A stretch of 64,000 nt of DNA from Phycisphaerae bacterium. GTDB taxonomy: Bacteria; Planctomycetota; Phycisphaerae; UBA1845; Fen-1342. This document shows, piece after piece, positions 2-18,374 of the stretch. Position 1 is the first letter of the stretch, and each line of letters begins with the position of its first letter. The stretch spans positions 372,001-436,000 of the forward strand of contig JAUIEC010000003.1 in NCBI GenBank assembly GCA_030428945.1. The letters are read 5' to 3'. The notes under the pieces are model-generated. The model saw only the letters and a list, made by a program, of their open reading frames with translations, was not told where the DNA came from and did no database searches. Both the position numbers and the translations under genes were made by a program.

Positions 2-70
2 GAGATCGATCAGGACGACCTGCTCGACCTGGTGATCGAGTCGCTCGATCATGCCGCGCAGCGCGACTGA
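2..70 (+). CDS. C-terminal end of an unidentified protein (partial)
   Basis: An open frame enters from the left edge and ends at TGA 68-70. Its last 22 residues are acidic and leucine-rich (ending SLDHAAQRD), typical of a helical C-terminus. Nothing in so short a piece identifies the protein. It points the same way as the following TPR gene, about 110 bases away, so it could be the last gene of an upstream operon. The reading frame call rests only on the lack of stops and on codon use like that of the neighbours. Confidence 0.45.
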   Translation, partial: EIDQDDLLDLVIESLDHAAQRD

Positions 71-180: not shown

Positions 181-3100
181 ATGCCTGGACGCAACCTGTT
201 TCCCTGCCTGCTGATCCTGCTGGTCCTGCTTCCCGGGCCCGGACGCGCCGACGACGACGCCGGCCTGTCCGGCTACCTGGCTGCCAACGGCCTGCTGCAA
301 CGCGGTCTCTATGACCTGGCCGCCGGCGAGTACCAGGCGTTCCTGGCGGAACATCCGCGGCACGAAAAGGCCGCCCGGGCCCGGTACGGCCTGGCCGTGT
401 GTCACTTTCGAACCGGCGCGCACGCGGCCGCGCTCGAGGCGCTGGCGCCCCTGATCGATCAGGACGACTTCGCGTTCGCGGCCGAGGTCGGCGCTCTGCG
501 GGCCCAGGCGGAGCTTGCGACCGGCAACCACGAGCGGGCCCTGGCCGCCTGCGCCGCGTTCCTCAGGAAGCACGCGCGTCACAAACTGGCCGAAAACGTC
601 ACCGCGATCCTGGTCGAGACCTGCCTGCTGGCGGATCGTCACGACGACGTGATCGAGGTCGCCGACCGTTTCACGCGGCGCTGGAAGCAGTCACCGCTGC
701 GCGAACGGGTCTGGTTCTTCGCCGGCAGCGCGCAGCTTGCCCGCGAGGACTTCGCCGCCGCGGCGGCCGCGTTCGAGCAGTTGCTGGGCGGATTCCCCCA
801 GAGCCCGTATCGCCCGCAGGCGCTGCTGTTCAGCGGCCACTGCGCCGAGCGGCAGGGCGACGCCGGACTGGCGCAGCGCCGCTACGAGGAACTGCTGCAG
901 GTCGATCGCTGTCCGGAACAGGCCGAGGCACTCTTCGCCCTGGCCAGTCTCGCCCGCGACAAGGACGACCGTGCGGCCGCTCTGGCGCGGATCGCGCGGC
1001 TGCTCGAGGTGTTCCCGGAGCACCCGCGCTCGGATGAAGCGCGGCTGCTGCGGGCCGCCGTGCTGCTCGGACAGGATGAGGTTGATGCCGCCCGCCGCGA
1101 TCTGGCCGCCGTCACGTCCGAGGGGCTTGCCGATCGCGTCGCATACTGGCGTGCCAAGGCGGCGCTGCGGGCCGGCGATGCCGCTGCGGCCGCCGCGCAG
1201 TTTCAGCAGGCGCTGCGGGAACACCCGGAGAGCGAATTGCGCGTCGAGATGCAGTACGATCGCTGCGTCGCCCTCCTTGCCGCCCGGGACAACGCCACCG
1301 CGCGACAGGCCCTGAGCGCCTTCTGTCGCGAGCACGGCGACCACCCGCTGGCCGCCGATGCGCTGCTCAGCCTGGTCAACCTGACCCAGGCGGCCGGTGA
1401 TCTCGAACAGGCCGACGAACTCGGCGATCAGTTCCTGCAGCGCTACGGCGACCACCCCGAGGCCGCCCTGGCCGCGCTGCTGCAGGCCGACAACGCCTAC
1501 CAGCAGGGCGCGTTCGAAGACGCGCTGCGCGGCTACAGCCGTTTCCTGAAACGCTTCGCCGACAGCGCTCTCCGCCCGCAGGCCGAACTTCGCCTCGGCC
1601 TGACGCTCTATCGCCTCGAGCGCTTCGACGACGCCCGCCCGGTGCTGCAGCGCAGCGTTCAGCACGAGCCCGTCGCGCCGGCCGTGCTCGCCCTGGCCGA
1701 GATCGACTACGCCGCCGAGAACTGGTCCGCGGCCGCCGACCGCTTCCGCGCGTATCTCACCCTGGCGCAGCAGGGCGCCGCGCGTGGCACCGCGCTGCTC
1801 AAGCTCGGGCTCTGCCGGCAGCGTGCCGGCGATCCGGCCGCGGCGCTGGCCAGTTACGACGAACTTCTCCAGGAGGCCCCGGACGATCCCGCCGCCGAGC
1901 AGGCCCGCTTCGAGCGCGGGCAGGTGCTCGTGGCGCTCGGGCGCACCGAGCAGGCGGACGCCGCGTTCCAGCAGGCGCTGCAGGACGACGGCGATCCGCG
2001 CCTGCGCGGGTTCGCCCGCCGACACCTGGCCCAACTGGCCGCGGCCCGCGGCGACCACGCCGAAGTGATCCGTCTGGCCGGGGAACTGCTCAAGGAAGGC
2101 ACGCCCGCCCTGCAGGCCGAGGCGCACCTGCTGGCCGGACAGGCCCATCTGCTCGGTTCCGATCCCGCGGCCGCCGAACGGCACCTGCGGGCGTACCTGA
2201 AACTGGCTGACGGGCAGCAGGCACCTGCTGACCAGCGGGCGGCGGCCGAACTGCAACTGGCCCAGGCGCTCTCGCGGCAGGGCCAGGTCGAGGAAGCCAG
2301 AAGCCTGTTGAAGCGCTGGCAGCGGACGGCGGTCGGTGCGGTCGACACCGCCACCCGCGCTGCGGGACTGTACGAACTGGGCTGGACTTCGCGGCGCCTG
2401 GGCGATGGTGAGGCGGCGGTTGCGGCGTTCGAGTCGCTGCTGGCGCTCGACCCCGAGGCCGACCTGCGGGCCCGCGCCCTGGTGGAACTGGCCGAGCTTC
2501 GTTCGAGTGCCGGTGATTGCGGCGCGGTGACCGAACTGCTCGCGCCGGTTGAGCAACTCGAAACGGCCGACACGGTCCGGGCCGCGGCCGCGTACCGGCT
2601 GGGGGTCTGTGCGTTCGAAGGCGAGGATTACGAAGCGGCCGCCCGTCGCCTGTCGCGTTTCGTCGAGCGTTTCCCGTCACACCCGCTGGAGCCGTCGGTC
2701 CGGTACTTCTGCGGCGAGGCGCTGGTTCGACTGGGACAGCACAAGGCGGCGATGCCACACTTTCGGCGCATCGTGGGCGACTTCGACAAGCACGAGGTTT
2801 TCGGCCCGAGCCTCGTCCGCCTGGGCGACTGCCTGGTGGTGCTGCAGCAGTGGGCGGCGGCGGGTGAGCAGTTCGCCCGCTATCGCCAGGCGCTGCCGGA
2901 CGGACCGCTCTGGCACGAGGCCCAGTTCGGGATCGGCTGGACGGCCGAGAACCAGGGTCGGTACGAGCCCGCGCTGAAGGCTTATCGCGAACTGGTCGCC
3001 CGCCACAAGGGGCCGACCGCGGCCCGGGCCCAGTTCCAGATCGGCGAGTGCCTGTTCGCGCAGGAGAAGTACGAGGACGCGGTCCGCGAACTGCTGCGCG

Positions 3101-3309
3101 TCGAGATCCTCTACGCCTATCCGGAGTGGAGTGCGGCCGCCCTGTACGAGGCGGGGCGCTGTTTTGAGAAGCTCGGTCGCGCGGTCGAAGCCCGCCAGCA
3201 GTTCCAGGCCTGCGCGGAACGCTACGAGACGACCCGCTGGGCGGAACTGGCCCGCGGCCGACTGGCGGCCGTGGAAGAAGCGCTGTTGCCGGGAAGGTCC
3301 GGGTCCTAG
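181..3309 (+). CDS. Secreted tetratricopeptide-repeat protein, 1042 aa
   Basis: A long periplasmic or outer-envelope scaffold made almost wholly of TPR units. The ATG at 181 is chosen over an upstream TTG at 148 because it is preceded by a GGAGGG ribosome site and starts a clean signal peptide (hydrophobic run LLILLVLL, residues 8-15, then GRADDD). From about residue 30 to the end there are many copies of the roughly 34-residue pattern with paired Ala/Tyr/Leu/Phe positions (for example YEAAARRLSRFVERFPSHPL), resembling the YbgF/BamD class of envelope TPRs. It lies just ahead of ExbB- and ExbD-like genes, an arrangement known for YbgF near Tol and for TPR proteins near TonB-type systems, so a role in assembling or energising an envelope complex is inferred. 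No catalytic motif was seen. Confidence 0.88.
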   Translation: MPGRNLFPCLLILLVLLPGPGRADDDAGLSGYLAANGLLQRGLYDLAAGEYQAFLAEHPRHEKAARARYGLAVCHFRTGAHAAALEALAPLIDQDDFAFAAEVGALRAQAELATGNHERALAACAAFLRKHARHKLAENVTAILVETCLLADRHDDVIEVADRFTRRWKQSPLRERVWFFAGSAQLAREDFAAAAAAFEQLLGGFPQSPYRPQALLFSGHCAERQGDAGLAQRRYEELLQVDRCPEQAEALFALASLARDKDDRAAALARIARLLEVFPEHPRSDEARLLRAAVLLGQDEVDAARRDLAAVTSEGLADRVAYWRAKAALRAGDAAAAAAQFQQALREHPESELRVEMQYDRCVALLAARDNATARQALSAFCREHGDHPLAADALLSLVNLTQAAGDLEQADELGDQFLQRYGDHPEAALAALLQADNAYQQGAFEDALRGYSRFLKRFADSALRPQAELRLGLTLYRLERFDDARPVLQRSVQHEPVAPAVLALAEIDYAAENWSAAADRFRAYLTLAQQGAARGTALLKLGLCRQRAGDPAAALASYDELLQEAPDDPAAEQARFERGQVLVALGRTEQADAAFQQALQDDGDPRLRGFARRHLAQLAAARGDHAEVIRLAGELLKEGTPALQAEAHLLAGQAHLLGSDPAAAERHLRAYLKLADGQQAPADQRAAAELQLAQALSRQGQVEEARSLLKRWQRTAVGAVDTATRAAGLYELGWTSRRLGDGEAAVAAFESLLALDPEADLRARALVELAELRSSAGDCGAVTELLAPVEQLETADTVRAAAAYRLGVCAFEGEDYEAAARRLSRFVERFPSHPLEPSVRYFCGEALVRLGQHKAAMPHFRRIVGDFDKHEVFGPSLVRLGDCLVVLQQWAAAGEQFARYRQALPDGPLWHEAQFGIGWTAENQGRYEPALKAYRELVARHKGPTAARAQFQIGECLFAQEKYEDAVRELLRVEILYAYPEWSAAALYEAGRCFEKLGRAVEARQQFQACAERYETTRWAELARGRLAAVEEALLPGRSGS

Positions 3310-3320
3310 CCGGGGGCAGT

Positions 3321-3376
3321 CAGCAGGTAAGCAAGTAAGCAAGTAGGCAAGTCATCGAGTGAGCAAGTAGGCAGGG
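3321..3376. repeat. Octamer array, AGCAAGT family (7 units)
   Basis: Seven consecutive 8-base units of the pattern AGCAAGTN, with substitutions mostly at one or two positions, fill the gap between the TPR gene and the exbB-like gene. The period of 8 is exact. The same family returns at 12362-12393, 12451-12505 and 55344-55375. Confidence 0.85.
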
Positions 3377-3443: not shown

Positions 3444-4187
3444 ATGGAGATTCTGGCCTTCGGTTTTCTCGCCCAGGACGCGGCCTCGGTCGAGGTGCAG
3501 TCGATCTGGGACCTGCTCGTCAAGGGTGGCGTGATGATGATCCCGATCGGGATCTGTTCCCTGATCGCGCTGACCGTGATCGTCGAACGCTCGGTCTCGC
3601 TGCGGCGCGGCAACATCCTGCCGGACCGGCTGCTGCCCGAACTCGAGCAGAACCTGCGGAGCGGCAACACGGCCGCGGCCGTTGCCCGCTGCAAGGCCGA
3701 CGACAGCCCGCTCGCCCGGGTGGTCGCCCGCGTGCTGCACTACCGTCGCGAAAGTTTCGACGTCATCGAGCGCCAGGTCGAACAGGCCGGGCAGCGTGAG
3801 ATTCTCAAGCTGCGCAAACACCTGCGCGTGCTGAGCGTCATCGCGGCCGTCACGCCGCTGCTGGGTCTGCTCGGAACCATCATGGGCATGATCCGCGCGT
3901 TCCAGACGGTTGCCGGTTCGGCCGAAGCGCTCGGACGCACCGAACTGCTCGCCCAGGGCATCTACGAGGCGATGATCACCACCGCGGCCGGGCTGAGCGT
4001 CGCCATCCCGGTGCTGATCGGCTACCACTGGATTACCGGCAGGATCGAGCGACTGGTTGCCGACCTCGACCTCGACGTCACCGAATTCGTCGAACGACAG
4101 ATCCTCGGCCGCGGTGCCCCCGAGCCGGACACAGAGACCGCGGCCGAACCCGAAGCCGTCAGCGCCACGCCGGCCGTCGCCGGTTGA
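3444..4187 (+). CDS. exbB: MotA/TolQ/ExbB-family proton channel subunit
   Basis: Inner-membrane subunit that, with an ExbD/TolR partner, uses the proton gradient to drive a periplasmic client. The 247-residue length fits the family. Membrane segments are visible near residues 28-50 (GVMMIPIGICSLIALTVIVE), about 130-153 (the family-typical VTPLLGLLGTIMGMIRAF) and 178-195 (AMITTAAGLSVAIPVLIGY). A GAGGAG ribosome site precedes the ATG. The ExbD-like gene follows after 16 bases and the large fusion gene 3 bases after that, so the three are surely cotranscribed. Whether the physiological partner is a TonB-like, Tol-like or other client cannot be told from the sequence alone. A Pro/Glu/Ala-rich tail at the C-terminus is unremarkable. 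Confidence 0.92.
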   Translation: MEILAFGFLAQDAASVEVQSIWDLLVKGGVMMIPIGICSLIALTVIVERSVSLRRGNILPDRLLPELEQNLRSGNTAAAVARCKADDSPLARVVARVLHYRRESFDVIERQVEQAGQREILKLRKHLRVLSVIAAVTPLLGLLGTIMGMIRAFQTVAGSAEALGRTELLAQGIYEAMITTAAGLSVAIPVLIGYHWITGRIERLVADLDLDVTEFVERQILGRGAPEPDTETAAEPEAVSATPAVAG

Positions 4188-4203: not shown

Positions 4204-4614
4204 ATGCTGCTGAAACGAAACACGGATGAAGCGACCGTCACGATCGAGATGATGCCGCTGATTGACATGGTCTTTCTGCTGCTGATCTTCTTCCTGGTCG
4301 CAACCACTTTCCATCAGACCGAGCGCGAGATGCAGATCGCACTGCCGTTCGCCGAAAGCTCCGGCCCGATCAGCGCCGCCCTGCGCGAGATCGTCATCAA
4401 CGTCGACGAGGACGGCCGGATGATCGTCGCCGGCCAGACGATGGAAGCCGACGCGGTCGGCGCCCTGATCGAGGAAGCGGTCGCGGCCAACCCGGAGCAG
4501 AAGGTCACCCTGCGCGGCGATCGACGCGTGGCCTACGGTCAGATCGTGACCGTGCTCGACCTCTGCAAGCGCAGCGGAATCCAGGAACCCTATCTCGATA
4601 CCGTCCTGGAGTAA
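4204..4614 (+). CDS. exbD: ExbD/TolR-family protein
   Basis: A 136-residue partner of the ExbB-like channel: short cytoplasmic N-terminus, a single membrane helix (DMVFLLLIFFLVATTF, about residues 23-38) and a periplasmic domain. The conserved aspartate expected at the start of the helix, which carries protons in this family, is present in MMPLIDMVF. The ATG at 4204 is used rather than the upstream in-frame ATG at 4057, because the latter would overlap the exbB-like gene by 130 bases and add a low-complexity extension out of family. The C-terminal half shows the family pattern with VTLRGDRRVAYGQIVTVLD. It is sandwiched between the channel gene and the fusion gene with tiny gaps. Confidence 0.92.
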   Translation: MLLKRNTDEATVTIEMMPLIDMVFLLLIFFLVATTFHQTEREMQIALPFAESSGPISAALREIVINVDEDGRMIVAGQTMEADAVGALIEEAVAANPEQKVTLRGDRRVAYGQIVTVLDLCKRSGIQEPYLDTVLE

Positions 4615-4617
4615 GCG

Positions 4618-7600
4618 ATGCGGTCTCTCCCGTGGAAGACGCTCGCCGTCGGCGGCGCGCTGCTGCTGCTCGGCGGGCTGGCGACCTTCGCCTGGCTCCG
4701 TCAGCCGACCCGGACGCAGGTCTACACCGACGCGGACACGATCCGCGCCGCGCGCGATACCGTCGAACCGCGTGATGTGCTCTGGCAGCCGCCGACCGCG
4801 CTGGCCGCCGAAATCAACACCACCGCCGAGGACTACGAGCCGCAACTGAGCTGGGACGGACTGACGCTGTACTTCGTGCGCGGCAAGGCGGGGCAGAACG
4901 CCGACCTGTTCGTCGCGCGCCGGACGCCGCAGGGCTGGACCGCGCCGGTCGCGCTCGATGCGCTGAACAGCGAGTACGACGAACTCGGCCCGGAACCCAG
5001 CCGCGACGGGACCGCCCTGTACTTCTATTCCGATCGGCCAGGCGGCGCCGGCGGATACGACATCTGGGTCGCGCGTCGCAGCCAGGACGGCTGGGATCCG
5101 CCCGAGAACCTCGGCGCCGCCGTAAACAGTCCGTACAACGACTACGGCCCGGCCGTCACCCCGGGCGATGACCTGCTCTACTTCGCCTCGAATCGACCGC
5201 TGCCGGAAGACACCCGCGTGCCCGACCCGGACGCCTGGCCCGCGACCGCCCGCGAGCAGTTCCTGCAGCGCACCTACGACCTTTACGCCGCGCCCCGTTC
5301 CGCCCGCGGATTCGGCGCCGCCCAACCCGTGGTTGAGACGCTGACGCCGCACAATGAAGCCACCCCGGCCGTGTCGCCGACCGGCGACTTTCTGTACTTC
5401 GCCTCCGATCGGCCGGGCGGTCTCGGGGGGTTCGACCTGTACCGCGCCCGCCGGATGCAGGGCACGCTGCGCGAACCGGTCGGCCTGCGGTCGCCGGTCA
5501 ACACGCCGGCCAACGAACTCGACCCGGGCCTGACGCAGCTTGGCTACGGACTCTACTTCAGTTCCGACCGGTTGCTGCTGCCGCCCGAGCAGCCAGGCGC
5601 GCAGCCACCCGTCGACGCGGCCGAGACGGTCGCGTCGGGCGCCGAGCGGCCGGATTACAACCTGTACTACTCCGCTTCGCGCGAGGTCTTCCTCGAAACC
5701 GAGCGGACGCCGCCGCCGCCGATCGACTGGGCCGCGCTGCTGCCGTGGCTGCTGTGGCTCCTGCTGGCGCTGTTGCTGCTGGCTACGCTGCTGGCGCTCT
5801 GGGGAGCGCTGCGCGAGAAGCGTCTCGGCCTGCTGGCCCGCTGCCTGCTGGCCTCGCTGCTGGCGCACCTGCTGCTGCTGCTGCTGTTCAGCTTCCTGCG
5901 CGTCACCGAACAGGTCATGTCCGGGCTGAACCCGAAACCCGAGATCCGCATCAGCCTGGCGTCACCCAGTCAGACCTCGATCCTCGCCGCCCAGGTGCGA
6001 CCCGATCACGCCGAGCGACCCACGCAGCCGGCCGAGGCGATCGAACTTCAGCCGACCGAGATCGTCGTCACCCCGCCCGAACCGCCCGAGATGATTCGCA
6101 CCGAGGCCCCGCGGGCAACGCCGGAGATTGCCGAAGTCGCGGCCGAGGCGCCGCGCGAGGCGCAGCCCGTCGCCCGTCGTCCGGAAACGCCGACGCCAGC
6201 GCTGCCCGGCGCGAGCGAGCCCCTGACGATGCCCGTGCCGGACGAGGTTGTCGCCGAGTCGGCTCCCGAGACCAGCACCGAAGCCATCGCCGCCACGCTC
6301 GAACGCCCCCGTCTCGAAGCCTCGCCGCCGCGCTTCGCCACCTCGCAGCCGGTCCGGGCACCGTTCGAACTTGAACCCGGGCGGACGCTTGCCGCGGCGA
6401 TGCAACTGCCCGCAACCGAGCGCGGCCTGTCCGAGGCCCGTCAGACGCGCAGCCCGGAAACGCCGGCACCGCGATCGCTGCCCGCGGCCGCCAGCCTGGC
6501 GCTCGATCTGCCCGAGGAGTCCGCCGCCGTCACGGTTGCGGAGGACGCCCCGGCGCCGACACCCGCCGCGGCCACCGGTCTGCTGACGCCCGCTTCGATC
6601 GAAATGCCGGCGGCCCAACTGCAACGGGCCGTCCTGGTCGAGCCTGTCGACGACACCCGGCAGGCGTTCGCGCTGGCGTCGTCGGTCACGCCGACCGCGC
6701 GCGAGGCACGCCCTTCGATTCCGCGGTCCACCGCGGCGCCGCGCCGGCGTCCGAGCGCGCCACCCGAACTGCCGCTGGCACTGCTTGACGAGGTCCCGCA
6801 GCCGACGCCCGAGGCGGCCGCGCCGAGTCCGGCCGGCTACGCGGCACGACCGGTCGAACTCGCGCCGGCGGATGTGGTGGCCGCGCCGCTGCAGCGTCGT
6901 TTCGAACCAGCATCGCCGCTGCCGGTTGCGCGTGGTCCGGAGGACCTGACGCTGCCTGGCGGGACGCCGCGTGCCGCCCTGCGCGAAGCGTCGGCCACCA
7001 CTCGCCTGCCGCGCCCGACGCCGACCGCCGCCCCGGCGGCGTTGCCGCTGGCGATGGACCTGGCGCTGCCGACCGAGACCGAAGCACCGGCTCGTCCGTC
7101 GGCGCTCGCCCATCGCACGACGCCGCAGCGTCGTGAACTGCTGGAGGAACTGGGCGGCGATGCCGAGACCGAAGCGGCCGTGCGGCGTTCCCTGGCGTGG
7201 CTCGCCCGTCATCAGTCCGACCACGGCGGCTGGGACGGACTGCTCTTTGACCGCGGCTGCGGCGAATGCGAAGGCACCAGCGAGTACGCGATCGACGCGG
7301 CCGTGACCGGACTGTCGCTGCTGTGCTTCCTCGGTGCGGGCCACACGCACACCGAGGATGGCCCGTACCGCGACAATGTCGCGCGCGGCATCGCCTGGCT
7401 GCTGAACCTGCAGGACGACCGCGGCAGTCTGAGCCCGAACGAAACGCTCTACAGCCACGGGATCGCGACGATCGCGCTGGCGGAGGCCTATGCGCTGACC
7501 GGTGACCGGGCGCTCTATCGACCGCTGCAGTCCGCGGTCCGACACATCGACGACGCCAGCAACCCCCGGACCGGCGGGTGGCGCTACCAGCCCGGCGAAG

Positions 7601-8829
7601 AGGCCGACACGTCGGTGACCGGCTGGCAGGTGATGGCCCTCGCCAGCGCCCGCACCGCCGGACTGGCCGTCCCGCAGAAGGCCCTGCAGTCGGCCGAGGC
7701 CTGGCTTGACCGGGCCGAACGGCGTCCCGGGTTGTACGTCTACCAGCCCGGCGGACCGATCAGCGTGACGATGACGGCGGAAGCGATGTTCATGCGGCAA
7801 CTGCTCGGCCGCGACCGCGGCGCCCGCGACATGCGGACCTCGGCCCGGCTGATTGCGAGCGAGTCGCCCGACTGGGACGAGGTCGACACCTACCGCTGGT
7901 ACTACACGACGCTGGCGCTGTTCCACCATCAGGGTCCGGCCTGGTCGCGGTGGAACGAGGCGCTGAAGCGCGAACTGCTGGCCAGCCAGCGGCAGGGCGG
8001 CAAGGCCGACGGCAGTTGGGATCCGGTCGGGCCCTGGGCGGATGTCGGCGGGCGGATCTACCAGACGGCCCTGTGCACGCTGATGCTGGAGATCTACTAC
8101 CGCTACCTGCCCATGTATGCCGAGCCCGCGCCGGTCGCCCGTGCGCCCGGCGACCCGGTCGGGCGTGTCTATGGACGCGTTTACGACAGTGAGAGCGGCG
8201 CTCCGCTGGCGGCGGCCCGGGTGCGGCTTGATCGTCCGGACGGCGATCCGCTCGAGATCGAGACCGACGAGCGCGGCGAATACTCGCTCGACATTCCGCA
8301 GATGCCCGAGCACTTCGCGATCGCGGCCAGTCGCAGCGGGTACCTGCCGCGGGCGCTCGGGGCCGAGGCGGCCGCCCTGGCCGACGGTCGGTTGCAGTTG
8401 AACTTCGCGCTCGAGCCGATCGGGTCGGCGGTGCTCGCGCTGGAGGATCCGCCGCGGGTGCACCACCTCGGCAACGATCGCTGGGAGGGTCGGATCAACA
8501 GCCAGTTCCAGCGCAGCGCCGAGGGGCAGCGCCTCACGCTGCAATTCGAACTGCCGTCCGGCTGGGAGTCGAGCGACATCGACCAGGTCGTCCTGTCGTT
8601 CCTCGCCAAGGGCGTGCAATGCCCGCACCGCGTCCGGATCAACGGCCGCCCGCTGGCCGAGCGCCTCGGCGAGTCACCGGAAGACGGCAGCTATGGCGAC
8701 GTCCGCCTGACGTTTCCGGCCGGCCTGCTGACGGCCGGGACCAACACGTTCGAACTGCGGGCCAGCAGTTGCGCCGGCGACGTCGACGACTTCGAGTTCC
8801 TGAACGTGCAGTTGCGGTTTGAAGAGTAG
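4618..8829 (+). CDS. Multidomain membrane fusion protein: PD40 propeller, TM pair, Pro/Ala linker, squalene-cyclase-like toroid
   Basis: A 1403-residue protein that appears to be the client of the ExbB/ExbD pair encoded 3 bases upstream. Order of parts: a membrane anchor (residues 8-26); five PD40/TolB-like propeller blades (about 60-345, with repeated motifs such as LYFASDRPGGLGGFDLY); two strongly hydrophobic segments (about 366-393 and 401-425); a Pro/Ala/Glu-rich unstructured stretch of some 400 residues; an alpha/alpha toroid like squalene cyclase or prenyltransferase (about 845-1165, with RRSLAWLARHQSDHGGWDG and GGWRYQPGEEADTSVTGWQ); a carboxypeptidase-regulatory-like beta sandwich (about 1182-1265); and a C-terminal beta domain with paired cysteines. 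The membrane-plus-Pro-rich layout recalls TonB, but no TonB C-terminal domain was recognised. The catalytic DxDD motif of true cyclases was not found, so the toroid is probably a binding domain. Confidence 0.85.
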   Translation: MRSLPWKTLAVGGALLLLGGLATFAWLRQPTRTQVYTDADTIRAARDTVEPRDVLWQPPTALAAEINTTAEDYEPQLSWDGLTLYFVRGKAGQNADLFVARRTPQGWTAPVALDALNSEYDELGPEPSRDGTALYFYSDRPGGAGGYDIWVARRSQDGWDPPENLGAAVNSPYNDYGPAVTPGDDLLYFASNRPLPEDTRVPDPDAWPATAREQFLQRTYDLYAAPRSARGFGAAQPVVETLTPHNEATPAVSPTGDFLYFASDRPGGLGGFDLYRARRMQGTLREPVGLRSPVNTPANELDPGLTQLGYGLYFSSDRLLLPPEQPGAQPPVDAAETVASGAERPDYNLYYSASREVFLETERTPPPPIDWAALLPWLLWLLLALLLLATLLALWGALREKRLGLLARCLLASLLAHLLLLLLFSFLRVTEQVMSGLNPKPEIRISLASPSQTSILAAQVRPDHAERPTQPAEAIELQPTEIVVTPPEPPEMIRTEAPRATPEIAEVAAEAPREAQPVARRPETPTPALPGASEPLTMPVPDEVVAESAPETSTEAIAATLERPRLEASPPRFATSQPVRAPFELEPGRTLAAAMQLPATERGLSEARQTRSPETPAPRSLPAAASLALDLPEESAAVTVAEDAPAPTPAAATGLLTPASIEMPAAQLQRAVLVEPVDDTRQAFALASSVTPTAREARPSIPRSTAAPRRRPSAPPELPLALLDEVPQPTPEAAAPSPAGYAARPVELAPADVVAAPLQRRFEPASPLPVARGPEDLTLPGGTPRAALREASATTRLPRPTPTAAPAALPLAMDLALPTETEAPARPSALAHRTTPQRRELLEELGGDAETEAAVRRSLAWLARHQSDHGGWDGLLFDRGCGECEGTSEYAIDAAVTGLSLLCFLGAGHTHTEDGPYRDNVARGIAWLLNLQDDRGSLSPNETLYSHGIATIALAEAYALTGDRALYRPLQSAVRHIDDASNPRTGGWRYQPGEEADTSVTGWQVMALASARTAGLAVPQKALQSAEAWLDRAERRPGLYVYQPGGPISVTMTAEAMFMRQLLGRDRGARDMRTSARLIASESPDWDEVDTYRWYYTTLALFHHQGPAWSRWNEALKRELLASQRQGGKADGSWDPVGPWADVGGRIYQTALCTLMLEIYYRYLPMYAEPAPVARAPGDPVGRVYGRVYDSESGAPLAAARVRLDRPDGDPLEIETDERGEYSLDIPQMPEHFAIAASRSGYLPRALGAEAAALADGRLQLNFALEPIGSAVLALEDPPRVHHLGNDRWEGRINSQFQRSAEGQRLTLQFELPSGWESSDIDQVVLSFLAKGVQCPHRVRINGRPLAERLGESPEDGSYGDVRLTFPAGLLTAGTNTFELRASSCAGDVDDFEFLNVQLRFEE

Positions 8830-11051: not shown

Positions 11052-12374
11052 ATGCGTCTGTGTGTGATTGGTAGCGGCTATGTCGGGCTGGTGACCGCCG
11101 CCTGTTTCGCCGATTCCGGCAACCACGTTGTCGCCGTCGATATCGATCCCGAGAAGGTCGCCGAACTCTCGGCCGGCCGGTCTCCGATCTTCGAGCCGGG
11201 ACTCGAAGAACTGCTGCAGGCCAACCTGAAGGCGGGGCGCCTGCGGTTCACCACGAATCCGGCCGAGGGGGTGGCGGGGGCGGCGGTGATCTTCCTGGCC
11301 GTCGGGACGCCGCCGCGCCCGGACGGATCGGCCGACCTGCAATACATCTCGGCGGCGGCCGAGGCGGTCGGGGCGGCCCTGACGGGCCCGGCGATCATCG
11401 TGACCAAGAGCACCGTGCCGGTCGGGACCGGCAAGCGTCTCGGGGACCTGATCGCGGCGCAGACCCGGCACCCGTTCGAGATGGTCAGCAATCCCGAGTT
11501 CCTCAAGGAAGGCACCGCGGTCGACGACTTCCTGCGTCCGGACCGGGTGGTGATCGGGGCCGACCACCCCGACGCGGCCGAACCGCTGGTCGAACTGCAT
11601 CAGCCGTTCGTGCGCAACAACCGCCCGATCCTGCTGATGCAGCGCGAGGCGGCCGAACTGTGCAAGTACGCGGCGAACGCGTACCTGGCGACGCGGATCA
11701 GCTTCATCAACGAGATTGCCGAGGTCTGCGAGCGGCTCGAGATCGACATCGACGAGGTCCGGCGGGGGCTCGGGGCGGACCAGCGGATCGGGCACCACTT
11801 CTTCTATCCCGGCGTCGGGTACGGCGGAAGCTGTTTCCCCAAGGACGTGCAGGCCCTGGTCGACGTCGGCCGCGGGGTCGGGATTGAACTCGGCATCAGC
11901 GCGGCCGTGCATGCCCGCAACACCAGTGCCCGGGAGCGTCTCGCGCGGCAGGTGATCGAGCGACTGGGGCCGGACCTGTCCGGTCGGCGGGTGGCTTTGT
12001 GGGGGCTGGCGTTCAAGCCGAACACCGATGACGTGCGCGAGGCCCCGGCGATCACGATCGTCGAGCGCCTGCTCGAGGCCGGCGGCAGCGTCGCGGCGCA
12101 CGATCCGCGGGCGCTGGCCTCGGCCCGCCGTGTGCTGGGCGACCGGATCGACTACTGCGATGACGCCTACGATGCGCTGGAGGGCGCCGACGCGCTGCTG
12201 ACCGCGACCGAGTGGATGGAATACCGCAGCCCGGACTTCGACCGCATCCGCGCCGCACTGAAGCAACCGCTGATCTTCGACGGACGCAACATCTACAGCC
12301 GCCGCATGATGCAGCGGCACGGCTTCGAGTACTACAGCGTCGGTCGGCCGCCCTTTACTCCAGTAAGCAAGTAA
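11052..12374 (+). CDS. ugd: UDP-glucose 6-dehydrogenase
   Basis: Oxidises UDP-glucose to UDP-glucuronate with two NAD molecules, feeding polysaccharide or lipopolysaccharide synthesis. The 440 residues contain the N-terminal Rossmann motif (VIGSGYVGLVTAACFADSGN), the bridging helix (EAAELCKYAANAYLATRISF), the catalytic cysteine in GYGGSCFPKD (about residue 261) and the C-terminal NAD/UDP domain beginning LWGLAFKPNTDDVREAP, so it is complete. The ATG at 11052 is used because it begins directly at the Rossmann strand; the in-frame upstream ATG at 11031 would add seven unlikely residues. The last four residues, PVSK, and the stop codon are written by the octamer array that follows. It stands alone, with no sugar-nucleotide partner genes nearby. 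Confidence 0.95.
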   Translation: MRLCVIGSGYVGLVTAACFADSGNHVVAVDIDPEKVAELSAGRSPIFEPGLEELLQANLKAGRLRFTTNPAEGVAGAAVIFLAVGTPPRPDGSADLQYISAAAEAVGAALTGPAIIVTKSTVPVGTGKRLGDLIAAQTRHPFEMVSNPEFLKEGTAVDDFLRPDRVVIGADHPDAAEPLVELHQPFVRNNRPILLMQREAAELCKYAANAYLATRISFINEIAEVCERLEIDIDEVRRGLGADQRIGHHFFYPGVGYGGSCFPKDVQALVDVGRGVGIELGISAAVHARNTSARERLARQVIERLGPDLSGRRVALWGLAFKPNTDDVREAPAITIVERLLEAGGSVAAHDPRALASARRVLGDRIDYCDDAYDALEGADALLTATEWMEYRSPDFDRIRAALKQPLIFDGRNIYSRRMMQRHGFEYYSVGRPPFTPVSK

Positions 12375-12393
12375 GCAAGTGAGCAGGTAGCCA
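12362..12393. repeat. Octamer array, AGCAAGT family
   Basis: Four 8-base units (AGTAAGCA twice, then two variants) begin inside the last codons of ugd and carry its TAA stop. The phase continues from the family seen at 3321. Confidence 0.8.
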
Positions 12394-12450: not shown

Positions 12451-12505
12451 TGCAAGTCAGCAAGTCAGCAAGTGAGCACGTGAGCAAGTGAGCGCGTCGC
12501 CAGGT
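12451..12505. repeat. Octamer array, AGCAAGT family (about 7 units)
   Basis: About seven consecutive units of CAGCAAGT or GAGCAAGT type, decaying at the right end. It sits between the hairpin at 12405 and the 3' end of tagF. Confidence 0.8.
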
Positions 12506-13559: not shown

Positions 13560-16500
13560 TCAACGACCGGTCAGGTACTTGCTTGCGCCGCTCATCCGCG
13601 GCCGGGCACTACTCGACTGGAACGGAACGATCGCCGACGGAATCTCCGCCGGGAACTGGAACACGATGTCGATGCCGTAGACCTCGCCGGTCGTCGCCGT
13701 GATCCGCGGCTGCACCCGGTAGCGGCCCTGGCCTTCCGAAACGTTCGACCGCAGCATCTGCAGCACCGACCACGGCGTGCTGCCGCCGCCAAGCTGCTTG
13801 GTCTGCTCGGCCGGATACTTGTCCTTCGCCCGGGCGTTCAGGTCGAACAGGCGCATCTGACCCGTCGGCCACTGCCGCGCGGCCACGTTCCAGGTCAGCC
13901 GCCGGGCGGTCGCGTCGGAAAGGGCCGCCTCGGAGGTGCCGGCCAGGCGGATGCCGCCACCGCGTCCGCCGATCTGCTGGGCCGGGGCCGGCGCGCCGCC
14001 TTCGAGCAGCGGCACCGTCACTTCGGCGTTGCCGTAGACGTTCGCGATGTTCAGCGTGCCCGCACCCGGGCGGCAGAAGCCGACCGTCACCGGCTGGGCC
14101 GGCGGCAGGGCACCCTGCGAGAGCATGCCGACATCGGGTCCGTACAGGAAGCGGATCCACGCTTCGCACTGGGCGAAGGTCTGGTTGATCGCATCGCTGC
14201 CGACCCGGGCGTACAACTCGCCGTAGGCCTCCTTGAACTGCAGCACCGCCTTCAGCGTCTGCACCAGGGCCGCCGGATCACTCGCGCCGCCGCTGCCGAT
14301 CGGGTATCCGCCGGCCCGCTGGAAGAGCTGCGAGAAGCGCGTGTTCAGGTGATCGACCAGCAGCCCGTCACTGTAGGCCGCGATGTCGACCAGCGGCGCG
14401 ATCAGCGGGAAGTCCGCCGTGAAGGCCTGCTTGGTGATCATCGCGTTGGCCAGGCCGCGCGAGTCCGGCTGCACGTTCGAGGACGGCTCGTTGTCGTCGG
14501 TCAGCGGACCCAGGGCGACCACCTGCGAGACGTACCGGCCCCAGCCGTCGCCGACCTTGCCCGCGAAACCGATCGCCGGGCTGGCCGATCCGTCCGGCCA
14601 GTTGCGGTCGTTGGCCATCGCCCCGTTCTGGTAGGGCAGCCGGTCGCGGACCGCCTTGTCGATTCGCGAGAAGACGCGGTCGCCGATGTCCGAGGCCGGC
14701 AGGCCCGCGTCGAACAGGATCGCGTCGCTGACCAGGGCCTGGAAGCGGTCGCCCGTGGCGTTGCCGATCCGGGTGCCGTTCTCGCGCAGGTACGCCACGT
14801 ATTCCGGCCAGCTCAACTGGCCGCCCTGCAGCTTCTCGAGCAGCGACAGCGTTTCCTCCGGCAGCAGCTTGCTGTAGTCGCCGTAGAGCGCCTCCCAGTC
14901 GTCGTAGAAGCCGTCCAGGTAGGCCGCGGCCGCCCGGTCGAGGGCCTCCATGACCGGCTGGCCGCCCGGGTGCCTGGCGAGTTCGACGTTGACTTCCTCC
15001 ATCGCGATCAGCGTCGCGTGCAGCGTCTTCATCTCGTGGTACCTGGCCAGCAGGGCCCGCGTGTTGGTCCGCTGCCGGATCTGCTCATCGTCCTGGCCGC
15101 GGCGGCGCCGGGTGGAATCGTCGCGTGTCGGGGCGGGCTCCGCGGGCTCCTCGGTCTGTCCGCGGCGGCGTCGGCTGCCGAAGCCGCTGGACTGCTCCTC
15201 GGGTTCGGGGTCGGGTTCGCGGACGACCGGGGTCGGCTCGGGCTCCGGATCCGGTGCGGGGGTCCGCGTCATCGTGTCGCTGCTGTTGAAGCGGTGCTTG
15301 ACGAACGGCAGGTCGCTGGGCTCGGCATAGCCGGGCATCAGCCGGGCGAGCCCCGGCATCTCGGCGTGGTTCACCGTCTGCTCGGCCCGCTCCTGCATCC
15401 CGACCAGCAGGGCTTCGACCGTGCTGGTCTGCCAGCCGCTGCGCATGCTGCCGGCCAGTTGGTACAGGTCGACCGGCCGCCAGAACATTCGTTCGGACAG
15501 GTGCGACTTGTCGATGATGATGTCGTTGCGGCGGGCGCCTTCGGTCTGGCGGACATCGCTGAACCAGCGCGACAGGCGGCTCGAATCGGACGGCTCGGCC
15601 GAGTTGATCCCGCGGATCAGCGCCGGCCAGCGCGGCAGCAGGTCCAGTTCGTTGGCGCTGCCGTCGCCGACGAAGCCGCGCAGCGTCTGCAGGTAATCCA
15701 GCAGGACGTTGTCGGGTCCGAACGGCTCGCGCGCGATCGCGATGCCGACCTCGCCGTTGAACAGGGCCGGCGGCGAGGCTTCGATCACCTCGAACAGTCG
15801 CAGGTCGCGGTAGTAGTCGAGCGGCTCGCCGTCCTCGCCGACGCCGCACTGCTCGCGAATCGTGTTCAGGCTGACGTTCATCGCCGTCGCCAGGTCGGCC
15901 TGGCTCTGGGCGATCGCGGAGTAGACCCGTTCCTGCGGCTGCATGTCGCGGGCCGGCGCGCCCTTGGCGAGGGCCGCCTCGATCGGGGCGAACTCGGTGC
16001 CCCACGACTGGGCGAAGCCCTGGAGCAGGTCGCGCAGCCGGCGGATGCGCTGGTCGGGCGTCTCCGGCGCCGGGCGACTGCGGAGGAACTCCAGCAGTTC
16101 GTACCAGGCCTCGTTCAGCGTGCCGGGCGTCGGGCGCAGGCGGTCCATCTCGAGGATGTGTTCGATCCCCTCGGTCAGCGCCAGGTAGCGCGTGCTGGCC
16201 TCCTGGAAACGTGCCCCGTCGGTGAAGGCCTCGCGCTGCGCCATGATCTGCCCGTAGCGCTCACGCAGCACCGCGATGCGGGTGGCGAAGTCGCGCCAGT
16301 AGCGCAGGTCCTCGTCGGCGTTGTCCTCCAGGTTGGCGTACTGCAGCCAGGCCGCCTGAATCTGGCGGACCGCCGCGACCAGCGTGTCGGTCGCGACCGG
16401 TTCGTGTTCACCGGTCGCAAAACCGATCAGCTTGCTGGCCAGCAGGTCACGGGCGAAGGCCCGCTCCGAACCGGCCAGTTGCTCGAGCGAAATCTCGAAC

Positions 16501-18374
16501 TGCGTGGCCGCCTCTTCCAGTTGCTCGCCCTGCACGTCGACGAACCGCAGGAGTTGTTCGAACTCGGTCCGGCGCTGGGCCGCCTGTCCGCCGTCGAGGG
16601 CGACCTCGACCGGGCGTCCGACAACTTCGCCGTACCACTGGGCGTAGATCTTCAGGGCCGACATGTAGCGGGCCCGCCCGTCCGCGTCGGCGAACCCCGG
16701 CGGCGCGTTTCGCAGGCGGGTGCCCGCCTCGTCCAGCACCGGTCGGACGATCGCGTTCATCACGAACTGGCTGTGGATGGCGCCGACGTCCTCCTGGGGC
16801 ACGCGGATGTTGGCGCCGATGAACAGCATCTTGGCGTAGATCGCGTTCCAGGCGCCGTTGTAGGCCTCGTAGTGTCCCTGCAGTTCCTTGGCCTGGTGAA
16901 TGTTGCCGGCCAGTCCCTCGAAGGTCGCCGAGCGGGCCTCGATCTGCTCGCTGGCGTCGACGCAGGCCTGTTTCGGCCGCTCGACCAGGGCGCGGGTGCC
17001 GCTCCAGCCGAAGCCGAAGAACGTCAGCATCAGCACGAGCATCGCGGCCGAGCCGACCCAGACCATCCGTCGCATCCGCTGGTTCAGCGAGACGTGCTTG
17101 GCCGAGCGGAACACCAGGCCGTGTTCGGGGAAGACCTTGTTGGCGTAGAAGTCGTGAATGAAGAAGGCCTTCGAGTCGACCGCCTTGGACTTCTGCTCGC
17201 TGATGTGGGCCGTCGTGGTCCGGGCGAAGACGTCGAGGATCGGCGCGCCTTCCTGCACGGCCGAGGTGAAGTAGAAGCCGCGGAAGAAGGGCGGCTCCAG
17301 CAGCGGGCTCTTCTGGAAGACGGTCGAGATGTAGTCGTTCAGCGGGGTTTCGAGTTCGCGGAACGCCTCGGGGAACGTGACGATCATGCCGAGTTCGTCG
17401 TCGGTCGCCTTCCGCTGCAGGTAGCGCATGCTCCAGGCCCGCAGGCGTTCGTGCACCTCCTCGAAGGCGCCGGCGAAGTCGGCCGGGTCGAAGGGTTCCT
17501 GGAACTCGCCCGGGCGTGACCAGCCGACCATCTGGTTGCGCTGCTGCAGGTCGACGCGGATTTCCTCGAAGTACTCGCTGAAGCCGCCGACCAGGTCCAT
17601 CTTCGTGACCAGGATGAAGGTCGGGAAGCGGACGCCGAGCAACTGGTGGATCTGCCGCAGTCGCTCGCGCAGCACGGTCGCCTTCTGGGCCCGTTCCTCG
17701 CTGCTGTCGCGCAGCAGCTTGTCGGCCGGCAGGGCGATGACGATCCCGTTGATCGGGCAGCGCGGGCGGTTCTGCTTGAGCAGCTTGCAGAAGTATTCCC
17801 ACTCGACCTTGTCGGTCGTGCCTTCCTCGTGGAAGGCGATCCGTCCGGCCGTGTCGAGGATGACGCCTTCGTTGGCGAACCACCAGTTGTAGTTGCGGGT
17901 TCCGCCGAAGCCGGGCACCTCGTCCTTGCCGAGCGGGAAGTCGAGGCCGGAGTGGATCAGGCTGGCGGTCTTGCCACAGCCGGGCTCGCCCATCAGGACG
18001 AACCAGGGCAGCTTGTAGACGCTCAGTCCGTTGCTCTTCAGTTCCGACAGTTTGCCGCGGAATTTCTCGCGGTAGATCTGTTCCTGCTCGGCGATTTCGC
18101 CGCGCGAGGGGCCCTGCGATTCGAGTGCGTCGCTGAGCTGCGAGCTCTTCCGCCCGAACAGCAGGCGGCGGATCCCCCAGATCAGCAGGAACAGCAGGAT
18201 GCCGATCCCGAAGACCACCAGGATCCAGATCCGCGCGTTCTTGCTGCGCAGGGCCGGCAGCAGCGTGTAGAGGATCGACGCCAGCGAGCCGAAGCCGGCC
18301 AGGGCGAGCATCATCCGCACGGCCGGCGGCAGCTTGAAGAACTTCATCAGGACGGCATTGGCGCTCATTGCCAT
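13560..18374 (-). CDS. tssM: TssM (IcmF/VasK), type VI secretion inner-membrane protein
   Basis: Large subunit of the T6SS membrane complex that spans from the cytoplasm to the TssJ lipoprotein. At 1604 residues it is longer than the usual 1100-1300. Two membrane helices (about 20-42 and 48-72), a cytoplasmic NTPase-like domain with Walker A GEPGCGKT at 129-136 and VILDTAGR near 170, a third helix (about 437-458, WVGSAAMLVLMLTFFGFG), then a long periplasmic part. A Glu/Pro/Arg-rich insertion lies near residues 1020-1075 (PDPEPEPTPVVREPDPEPEE), which accounts for part of the extra length. The C-terminal region has the beta-rich TssM end. GAGG about ten bases before the ATG is the probable ribosome site. 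Upstream lies tssL, with 60 bases between. Confidence 0.93.
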   Translation of the reverse strand: MAMSANAVLMKFFKLPPAVRMMLALAGFGSLASILYTLLPALRSKNARIWILVVFGIGILLFLLIWGIRRLLFGRKSSQLSDALESQGPSRGEIAEQEQIYREKFRGKLSELKSNGLSVYKLPWFVLMGEPGCGKTASLIHSGLDFPLGKDEVPGFGGTRNYNWWFANEGVILDTAGRIAFHEEGTTDKVEWEYFCKLLKQNRPRCPINGIVIALPADKLLRDSSEERAQKATVLRERLRQIHQLLGVRFPTFILVTKMDLVGGFSEYFEEIRVDLQQRNQMVGWSRPGEFQEPFDPADFAGAFEEVHERLRAWSMRYLQRKATDDELGMIVTFPEAFRELETPLNDYISTVFQKSPLLEPPFFRGFYFTSAVQEGAPILDVFARTTTAHISEQKSKAVDSKAFFIHDFYANKVFPEHGLVFRSAKHVSLNQRMRRMVWVGSAAMLVLMLTFFGFGWSGTRALVERPKQACVDASEQIEARSATFEGLAGNIHQAKELQGHYEAYNGAWNAIYAKMLFIGANIRVPQEDVGAIHSQFVMNAIVRPVLDEAGTRLRNAPPGFADADGRARYMSALKIYAQWYGEVVGRPVEVALDGGQAAQRRTEFEQLLRFVDVQGEQLEEAATQFEISLEQLAGSERAFARDLLASKLIGFATGEHEPVATDTLVAAVRQIQAAWLQYANLEDNADEDLRYWRDFATRIAVLRERYGQIMAQREAFTDGARFQEASTRYLALTEGIEHILEMDRLRPTPGTLNEAWYELLEFLRSRPAPETPDQRIRRLRDLLQGFAQSWGTEFAPIEAALAKGAPARDMQPQERVYSAIAQSQADLATAMNVSLNTIREQCGVGEDGEPLDYYRDLRLFEVIEASPPALFNGEVGIAIAREPFGPDNVLLDYLQTLRGFVGDGSANELDLLPRWPALIRGINSAEPSDSSRLSRWFSDVRQTEGARRNDIIIDKSHLSERMFWRPVDLYQLAGSMRSGWQTSTVEALLVGMQERAEQTVNHAEMPGLARLMPGYAEPSDLPFVKHRFNSSDTMTRTPAPDPEPEPTPVVREPDPEPEEQSSGFGSRRRRGQTEEPAEPAPTRDDSTRRRRGQDDEQIRQRTNTRALLARYHEMKTLHATLIAMEEVNVELARHPGGQPVMEALDRAAAAYLDGFYDDWEALYGDYSKLLPEETLSLLEKLQGGQLSWPEYVAYLRENGTRIGNATGDRFQALVSDAILFDAGLPASDIGDRVFSRIDKAVRDRLPYQNGAMANDRNWPDGSASPAIGFAGKVGDGWGRYVSQVVALGPLTDDNEPSSNVQPDSRGLANAMITKQAFTADFPLIAPLVDIAAYSDGLLVDHLNTRFSQLFQRAGGYPIGSGGASDPAALVQTLKAVLQFKEAYGELYARVGSDAINQTFAQCEAWIRFLYGPDVGMLSQGALPPAQPVTVGFCRPGAGTLNIANVYGNAEVTVPLLEGGAPAPAQQIGGRGGGIRLAGTSEAALSDATARRLTWNVAARQWPTGQMRLFDLNARAKDKYPAEQTKQLGGGSTPWSVLQMLRSNVSEGQGRYRVQPRITATTGEVYGIDIVFQFPAEIPSAIVPFQSSSARPRMSGASKYLTGR

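Follow-up and report, generated by a model that had tools for sequence, protein, structure and literature searches.

A probable TonB/TolA-type force transducer with a PD40 propeller and a cyclase-fold tip, encoded beside ExbB/ExbD in a planctomycete

Force transducers of the TonB/TolA type carry an SHLS motif in a transmembrane (TM) helix; its first Ser and its His touch ExbB/TolQ, and its Leu and second Ser are less well conserved in Ton (PMC12215075). The D-box is a proline-flanked strand with the pattern hydrophobic-hydrophilic-hydrophobic-hydrophilic-hydrophobic-hydrophobic-hydrophilic (PMC10907165), and in E. coli TonB the relevant residues are Ser16 and 45-ISVTMVT-51, a spacing of 29 (PMC12215075). 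Motor-coupled transducers tipped with a vWA domain have already been published from the PVC group (Planctomycetes-Verrucomicrobia-Chlamydiae) and other phyla (Williams-Jones et al. 2025, PMC12204202). Here we describe an operon in a 64,000-nt stretch of a Phycisphaerae genome (GCA_030428945.1, contig JAUIEC010000003.1, positions 372,001 to 436,000; the whole stretch is called the window), in which genes for a tetratricopeptide repeat (TPR) protein, ExbB, ExbD and a 1403-aa fusion protein follow one another on the + strand. The fusion is an open reading frame (ORF) with an ATG start at 4618-8829, 3 bases after exbD, which ends at 4614; a preliminary description had placed it there, behind a large TPR protein, and the ORF, the gap and the upstream Pfam matches agree with that. 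Judged from sequence and structure models, the fusion is probably a TonB/TolA-type force transducer driven by the proton motive force, in which the third TM helix (TM3) would dock on the motor, the strand IRISLAS would act as a D-box, a long linker would bear the pull, and an alpha-toroid with a CarboxypepD_reg-like (CPE)/beta-sandwich pair would form the tip. Its parts are as follows (pLDDT, predicted local distance difference test):

4618..8829, +, fusion protein of 1403 aa, proposed force transducer (ORF, Pfam, hydropathy, structure models)
4636..4698, +, TM1, residues 7-27, N-terminus predicted cytoplasmic (hydropathy; helix 4-27 in the model)
4768..5682, +, PD40 beta-propeller, residues ~51-355, predicted periplasmic, five PD40-like repeats by eye (PF07676, E 2e-24)
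5728..5811, +, TM2, residues ~371-398, first helix of the hairpin (hydropathy; model)
5830..5898, +, TM3, residues ~405-427, proposed motor-docking helix (hydropathy; model)
5854..5868, +, S413-L-L-A-H417, the SxxxH of the TonB/TolA SHLS motif (conservation in propeller-type relatives)
5944..5964, +, D-box-like strand IRISLAS, residues 443-449, Pro-flanked (PKPE-IRISLAS-PS), starting at Ser+30
5965..7140, +, Pro/Ala-rich linker, residues 450-841, ~390 residues (composition)
7141..8118, +, alpha-toroid tip, residues 842-1167 (model, pLDDT ~95; weak SQHop_cyclase_C match by sequence)
8167..8412, +, CPE domain, residues 1184-1265 (PF13620, E 7e-9 in a separate scan)
8413..8826, +, C-terminal beta-sandwich, residues 1266-1403, highly conserved (VHHLGND, DDFEFxN) (model; conservation)

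The docking motif and its conservation among relatives carry this assignment. TM3 (ARCLLASLLAHLLLLLLF) holds S413-x3-H417, and H417 is the only invariant TM3 column in a 10-row alignment. To sample relatives, the propeller/TM region alone was searched in 298 genomes of the class, 66 of which gave hits at E 1e-20; 40 loci were taken irrespective of neighbours, motif or tip and, together with 10 found earlier (the window included), make up 50 propeller-type loci, mostly from metagenomic assemblies. The His is kept in all 50 and the Ser in 47, the other three having Ala. Moreover, a D-box-like strand starts at Ser+29..34 in 43 of these 50 proteins, compared with 2.8 expected in shuffles, and the structure model of the window protein has a strand at 443-447, at low confidence. 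An earlier sample was built from toroid or C-terminal-pair proteins at ~85 loci (the first sample); SxxxH lies in a hydrophobic helix in 60 of its 80 TM-bearing proteins, but in only 3 of 289 other TM proteins of the same loci and in 1.2% of shuffled TM helices. Hence the suggestion in the preliminary description of a proton-force client with a TonB-like plan gains support from motif evidence that it had not contained.

The gene order is equally constant. In all 50 propeller-type loci the fusion is immediately preceded, on its own strand, by the genes for TPR, ExbB and ExbD in this order; even at L076, where the fusion's frame, counted from stop to stop, runs into ExbD, that gene is in place. 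This uniformity argues that the arrangement is not due to chance, and the order on which the preliminary description was to stand or fall is thus conserved. In the first sample, 29 proteins adjoin ExbB/ExbD, every one on the same strand. The upstream genes in the window are:

181..3309, +, large TPR protein, predicted periplasmic, with CpoB/YbgF-like repeats and a signal-peptide-like N-terminus (Pfam TPR_16, E 7e-55; NCBIfam tol_pal_ybgF, 290 bits); the ATG start at 181 is predicted, and the ORF opens at TTG 148
3444..4187, +, ExbB/TolQ proton-channel subunit (PF01618, MotA_ExbB, E 1e-28; closest solved chains are TolQ)
4207..4614, +, ExbD/TolR subunit with the conserved PLID Asp (PF02472, E 4e-27; Asp aligned with solved ExbD/TolR)

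The pore region of the ExbB/TolQ subunit can be aligned to solved homologues. Between the TPR gene and exbB lies one of several short 8-bp tandem arrays (AGTAAGCA-like; window 3318-3373, 12362-12391 and 12452-12493), of which none is expected by chance. Immediately upstream of the TPR gene, on the same strand, is a gene for a BlaR1-type M56 peptidase (L156, 11270-14071) that ends near window 70.

The fusion reads, from its N-terminus, as a TM helix, a PD40 propeller, a TM hairpin, a Pro/Ala-rich linker, the alpha-toroid, the CarboxypepD_reg domain and the beta-sandwich. Propeller, membrane pair, long linker and cyclase-like toroid had all been proposed beforehand, and the PD40 match, the TM pair, the domain-free linker and the structural comparison given below uphold them; the N-terminal TM helix at 7-27, and the SxxxH and D-box-like strand at TM3, are additions to that layout. 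The loop joining TM2 to TM3 (GALREKRLGLLARC) carries positive charge and by the positive-inside rule is thus predicted to be cytoplasmic, which would place the propeller, the linker and the tips in the periplasm. With TM1 ahead of it and the hairpin behind it, the propeller would likewise be periplasmic. From shortly past TM3 up to the tip the chain runs for 410 residues with 18% Pro and 20% Ala, and Pfam recognises no domain within linker residues 450-841; the linker spans 266-636 residues across all 50 propeller-type relatives. The best NCBIfam models for the propeller are PorE (PD40 part, E 4e-40) and CHU_0125. Its structure model (mean pLDDT 72) has TolB as the top 16 Foldseek chains, whereas with VIA five-bladed GH43-type folds reached Z 20 and TolB, at 19% identity, Z 17. 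Because Foldseek places TolB first and VIA prefers the GH43-type folds, we softened a firm assignment as TolB-like and describe the domain as a PD40 propeller akin to those of TolB and PorE. A sequence search with the whole 1403-aa protein returned no match in the Protein Data Bank (PDB).

The tip was modelled with good confidence (residues 838-1403, mean pLDDT 89.7). By VIA, the toroid superposes on squalene-hopene cyclase 2SQC with Z 27.3 over 281 residues at 2.9 Å, and has the (alpha/alpha)6 toroid fold. The acid motif DxDD[TS] is absent from all 89 toroids compared (DxDD occurs anywhere in 2 of them), as is the thioester motif CGEQ; an active terpene cyclase and a thioester (complement/A2M) domain were both rejected on these grounds, and the catalytic cyclase residues named beforehand as the finding that would overturn the transducer proposal did not turn up. 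Strongly conserved toroid residues are Y945, W988, Y990, D997, S999, Y1092, Y1095, W1109, W1134, R1146, E1158 and R1162, and six of them (Y945, D997, S999, Y1092, Y1095 and R1146) sit at the N-terminal ends of inner helices in the model. Barrels of this type usually bind their ligands on that side, and from conservation the toroids likely have a common ligand, although an activity of some other kind is possible. In the CPE and sandwich pair, 41 of 232 columns are invariant across 9 proteins, and a PDB profile search with the pair gave chiefly CPE-like and surface-protein matches. The first Foldseek hit for the 838-1403 model was a PL4 rhamnogalacturonan lyase, for which no aligned range is given and which was probably reached via the beta domains; the PF14683 match, resembling the carbohydrate-binding module of that family, is weak (E 0.04, in one family member). 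Because these two matches are of this kind, carbohydrate binding by the beta-sandwich is possible, but only a lead.

The two tips are exchanged among the relatives. Toroid and C-terminal pair occur together in 16 of the 50 propeller-type proteins (including that in the window), the toroid only in 15 and the pair only in 19. For the propeller/TM region, the best tree requires 14 tip changes where the minimum possible is 2, and its well-supported branches alone force fewer. Split genes do not account for the missing tips, since neither tip was found in other frames of those loci, and this explanation was discarded. Thus the arm is the conserved part of the protein and the tip the variable part. 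In the toroid tree, the window protein falls in a supported clade (99/92) of propeller-bearing, motor-linked proteins, and toroids of the same family are present in 330 of 392 sampled Planctomycetota genomes.

These features suggest a mechanism in which ExbB and ExbD would form the motor, TM3 would dock on ExbB through S413 and H417, and the IRISLAS strand would join the ExbD dimer as a D-box. Proton flow would then move or tension the ~390-residue Pro-rich linker, which would transmit the pull to the tip, and the toroid and CPE/beta-sandwich pair would pull on an envelope ligand. The TPR protein and the propeller, which TM1 and TM2 would keep close to the inner membrane, may act as periplasmic or local partners. 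Several observations weigh against this assignment or limit its reach. In the window protein, F424 replaces the Leu (His+7) of SHLS and R428 its second Ser (His+11); in ExbB, compared by eye, the probable counterpart of Ser34 is still a Ser, but the Trp38 contact does not seem to be conserved. The likeness of the propeller to TolB is partial, since it scores higher to five-bladed folds of the GH43 type than to the six-bladed TolB. In the first sample, a D-box at a TonB-like position was seen in 4 of 28 motor-linked proteins, all four of them propeller-type, and in toroid proteins without a propeller it was absent or off-position; a D-box claim for toroid proteins in general was therefore rejected, the element being clear only in propeller-type fusions. 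Because propeller-less toroid proteins have SxxxH but no clear D-box, their coupling to a motor is less certain. Finally, the genome-wide absences discussed below are not proof, because the host genome is 94.7% complete.

Other SxxxH proteins were seen at further loci. Many single-TM SxxxH toroid proteins (L081, L084, L099, L122, L128 and others) have neither ExbB/ExbD close by nor a clear D-box, and L122 encodes three of them in tandem; such proteins away from ExbB/ExbD may share a common distant motor. Two-TM SxxxH proteins that end in the CPE/beta-sandwich pair and have no propeller are encoded at L092 (6815-9468), L093 (6525-8213) and L137 (9559-11247), and at L092 a separate toroid gene follows directly after that of the CPE/beta-sandwich protein.

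The host genome (5.5 Mb) contains three loci of the MotA/ExbB family: the fusion operon, a MotA/MotB-like pair whose MotB has an OmpA domain, and a second ExbB/ExbD locus (L150, G000:C24, 7624-13011). The latter encodes a vWA-tipped protein (SVAVH, D-box-like FSVGIVS), after which come genes for ExbB and two ExbD proteins and a large TPR-like ORF; as judged by sequence this locus has the parts of the published vWA transducer system (PMC12204202), and is a useful precedent in the same genome. TonB_C (PF03544), the receptor plug (PF07715) and TolB_N (PF04052) were not detected in the host genome, and E. coli and other controls were positive. An OmpA-domain lipoprotein, a candidate Pal, is encoded at another host locus (L157, 7927-8646) outside the fusion operon. 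Since these three domains are missing and the parts list resembles that of Tol and PorE, we favour a Tol-like role in envelope maintenance or tethering over receptor-driven uptake as the job of the fusion, although we hold it tentatively. The findings suggest that the motor serves a cell-envelope job that has so far not been described. Two other observations concern the genome outside this operon. A 1604-aa protein with an IcmF-related_N domain (E 5e-65; window 13560-18374, - strand) suggests that this planctomycete has a type VI secretion cluster, and a PurH-like ORF (L157, 10296-13010) has an AICARFT domain seemingly interrupted in frame by ~300 residues that resemble a REP-associated transposase and HRRDACAT repeats.

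An uptake transducer would have the same motor-coupling features: its tips would engage non-classical outer-membrane channels, for example in glycan import, and open them by pulling, in the manner of TonB. The weakly carbohydrate-binding look of the beta pair agrees with this, and a variable tip would fit varied substrates. However, propeller-type genomes usually have one copy rather than one per substrate, the operon has no recognised outer-membrane channel gene and the host lacks a receptor plug domain, so that we regard uptake as unlikely. It is more doubtful still that the toroid works as an enzyme in the periplasm, acting on lipids or glycans as a cyclase, lyase or epimerase, and is simply tethered beside the motor. 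Its nearest structures are indeed cyclase and epimerase folds, and the conservation at the inner-helix N-termini would fit an enzyme, but DxDD[TS] and CGEQ are missing, 19 of the 50 orthologous fusions do without a toroid, and an enzyme would need neither SxxxH nor a D-box.

The least probable alternative, to which we give very little weight, is a sensor or structural protein that shares only its operon with ExbBD and in which SxxxH is inherited or incidental. Propeller and CPE domains do occur in proteins not known as energised, such as PorE (PMC12204202), but the unbroken linkage in 50 loci, the His retained in every one and the D-box-like strand at TonB spacing argue otherwise. Hence we retain the force transducer as the best account. 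More speculatively, and rather less probably than not, the operon would be this lineage's own trans-envelope machine replacing Tol-Pal, a single chain joining propeller, docking helix and pulled tip, with two unrelated tips repeatedly exchanged or lost, and related SxxxH-toroid proteins across Planctomycetota would form a large family of motor clients with a shared ligand. With toroids in most sampled genomes and the docking motif in most TM-bearing members of the first sample, the SxxxH-toroid class may well be large. Planctomycetota have ExbB/ExbD motors, and the fusion operon offers a concrete, conserved client that makes the motor's role testable. A cyclase-fold toroid would here serve as a transducer tip, and tip exchange on one conserved arm provides a natural experiment in how force transducers may acquire cargo.

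We found nothing in the literature on toroid- or propeller-bearing transducers, within a coverage that mostly lacked subscription papers. The Tol-Pal combination of TolB with its N-terminal domain, Pal and TolQRA is not present here, as the genome has no TolB_N and the operon no Pal candidate. With squalene-hopene and other class II terpene cyclases the fusion shares the toroid fold, whereas its own toroid is without DxDD[TS] and is predicted to be a periplasmic tip on a membrane arm. PorE of type IX secretion is made of the same parts, namely TPR, a PD40 propeller and a CPE domain, but is described as a putative outer-membrane lipoprotein with an OmpA/Pal-like domain (PMC12204202), not as motor-coupled; the fusion operon contains no OmpA domain, and its TPR has a gene of its own. 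The vWA transducers (PMC12204202) share an SHLS TM helix, a disordered linker, a non-TonB tip and adjacent TPR and TolQ/TolR-like genes. They differ in the tip, which here is a toroid with a CPE/beta-sandwich pair, in lacking the added propeller and TM hairpin, and, in PVC members, in having a tolR-like pair beside them where the fusion operon has one ExbB and one ExbD. Because such motor-coupled transducers with non-TonB tips are already published, the fusion is a new variant and not an isolated machine; of the distinct energised envelope machine envisaged in the preliminary description, the non-TonB tips with motor features stand, and the isolation does not. A canonical TonB was rejected, as TonB_C is absent from fusion and host genome alike and Pfam matched no TonB_C/TolA-type C-terminal domain in the fusion. 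The fusion adds two TM helices and a periplasmic propeller ahead of the docking helix, its linker is ~390 residues long, and its tip is a toroid and/or a CPE/beta-sandwich pair instead of a TonB_C or TolA domain. In common with TonB and TolA of E. coli and their ExbBD and TolQR motors, it has an SxxxH TM helix, a D-box-like strand ~30 residues further on, a Pro-rich linker and a motor-adjacent gene.

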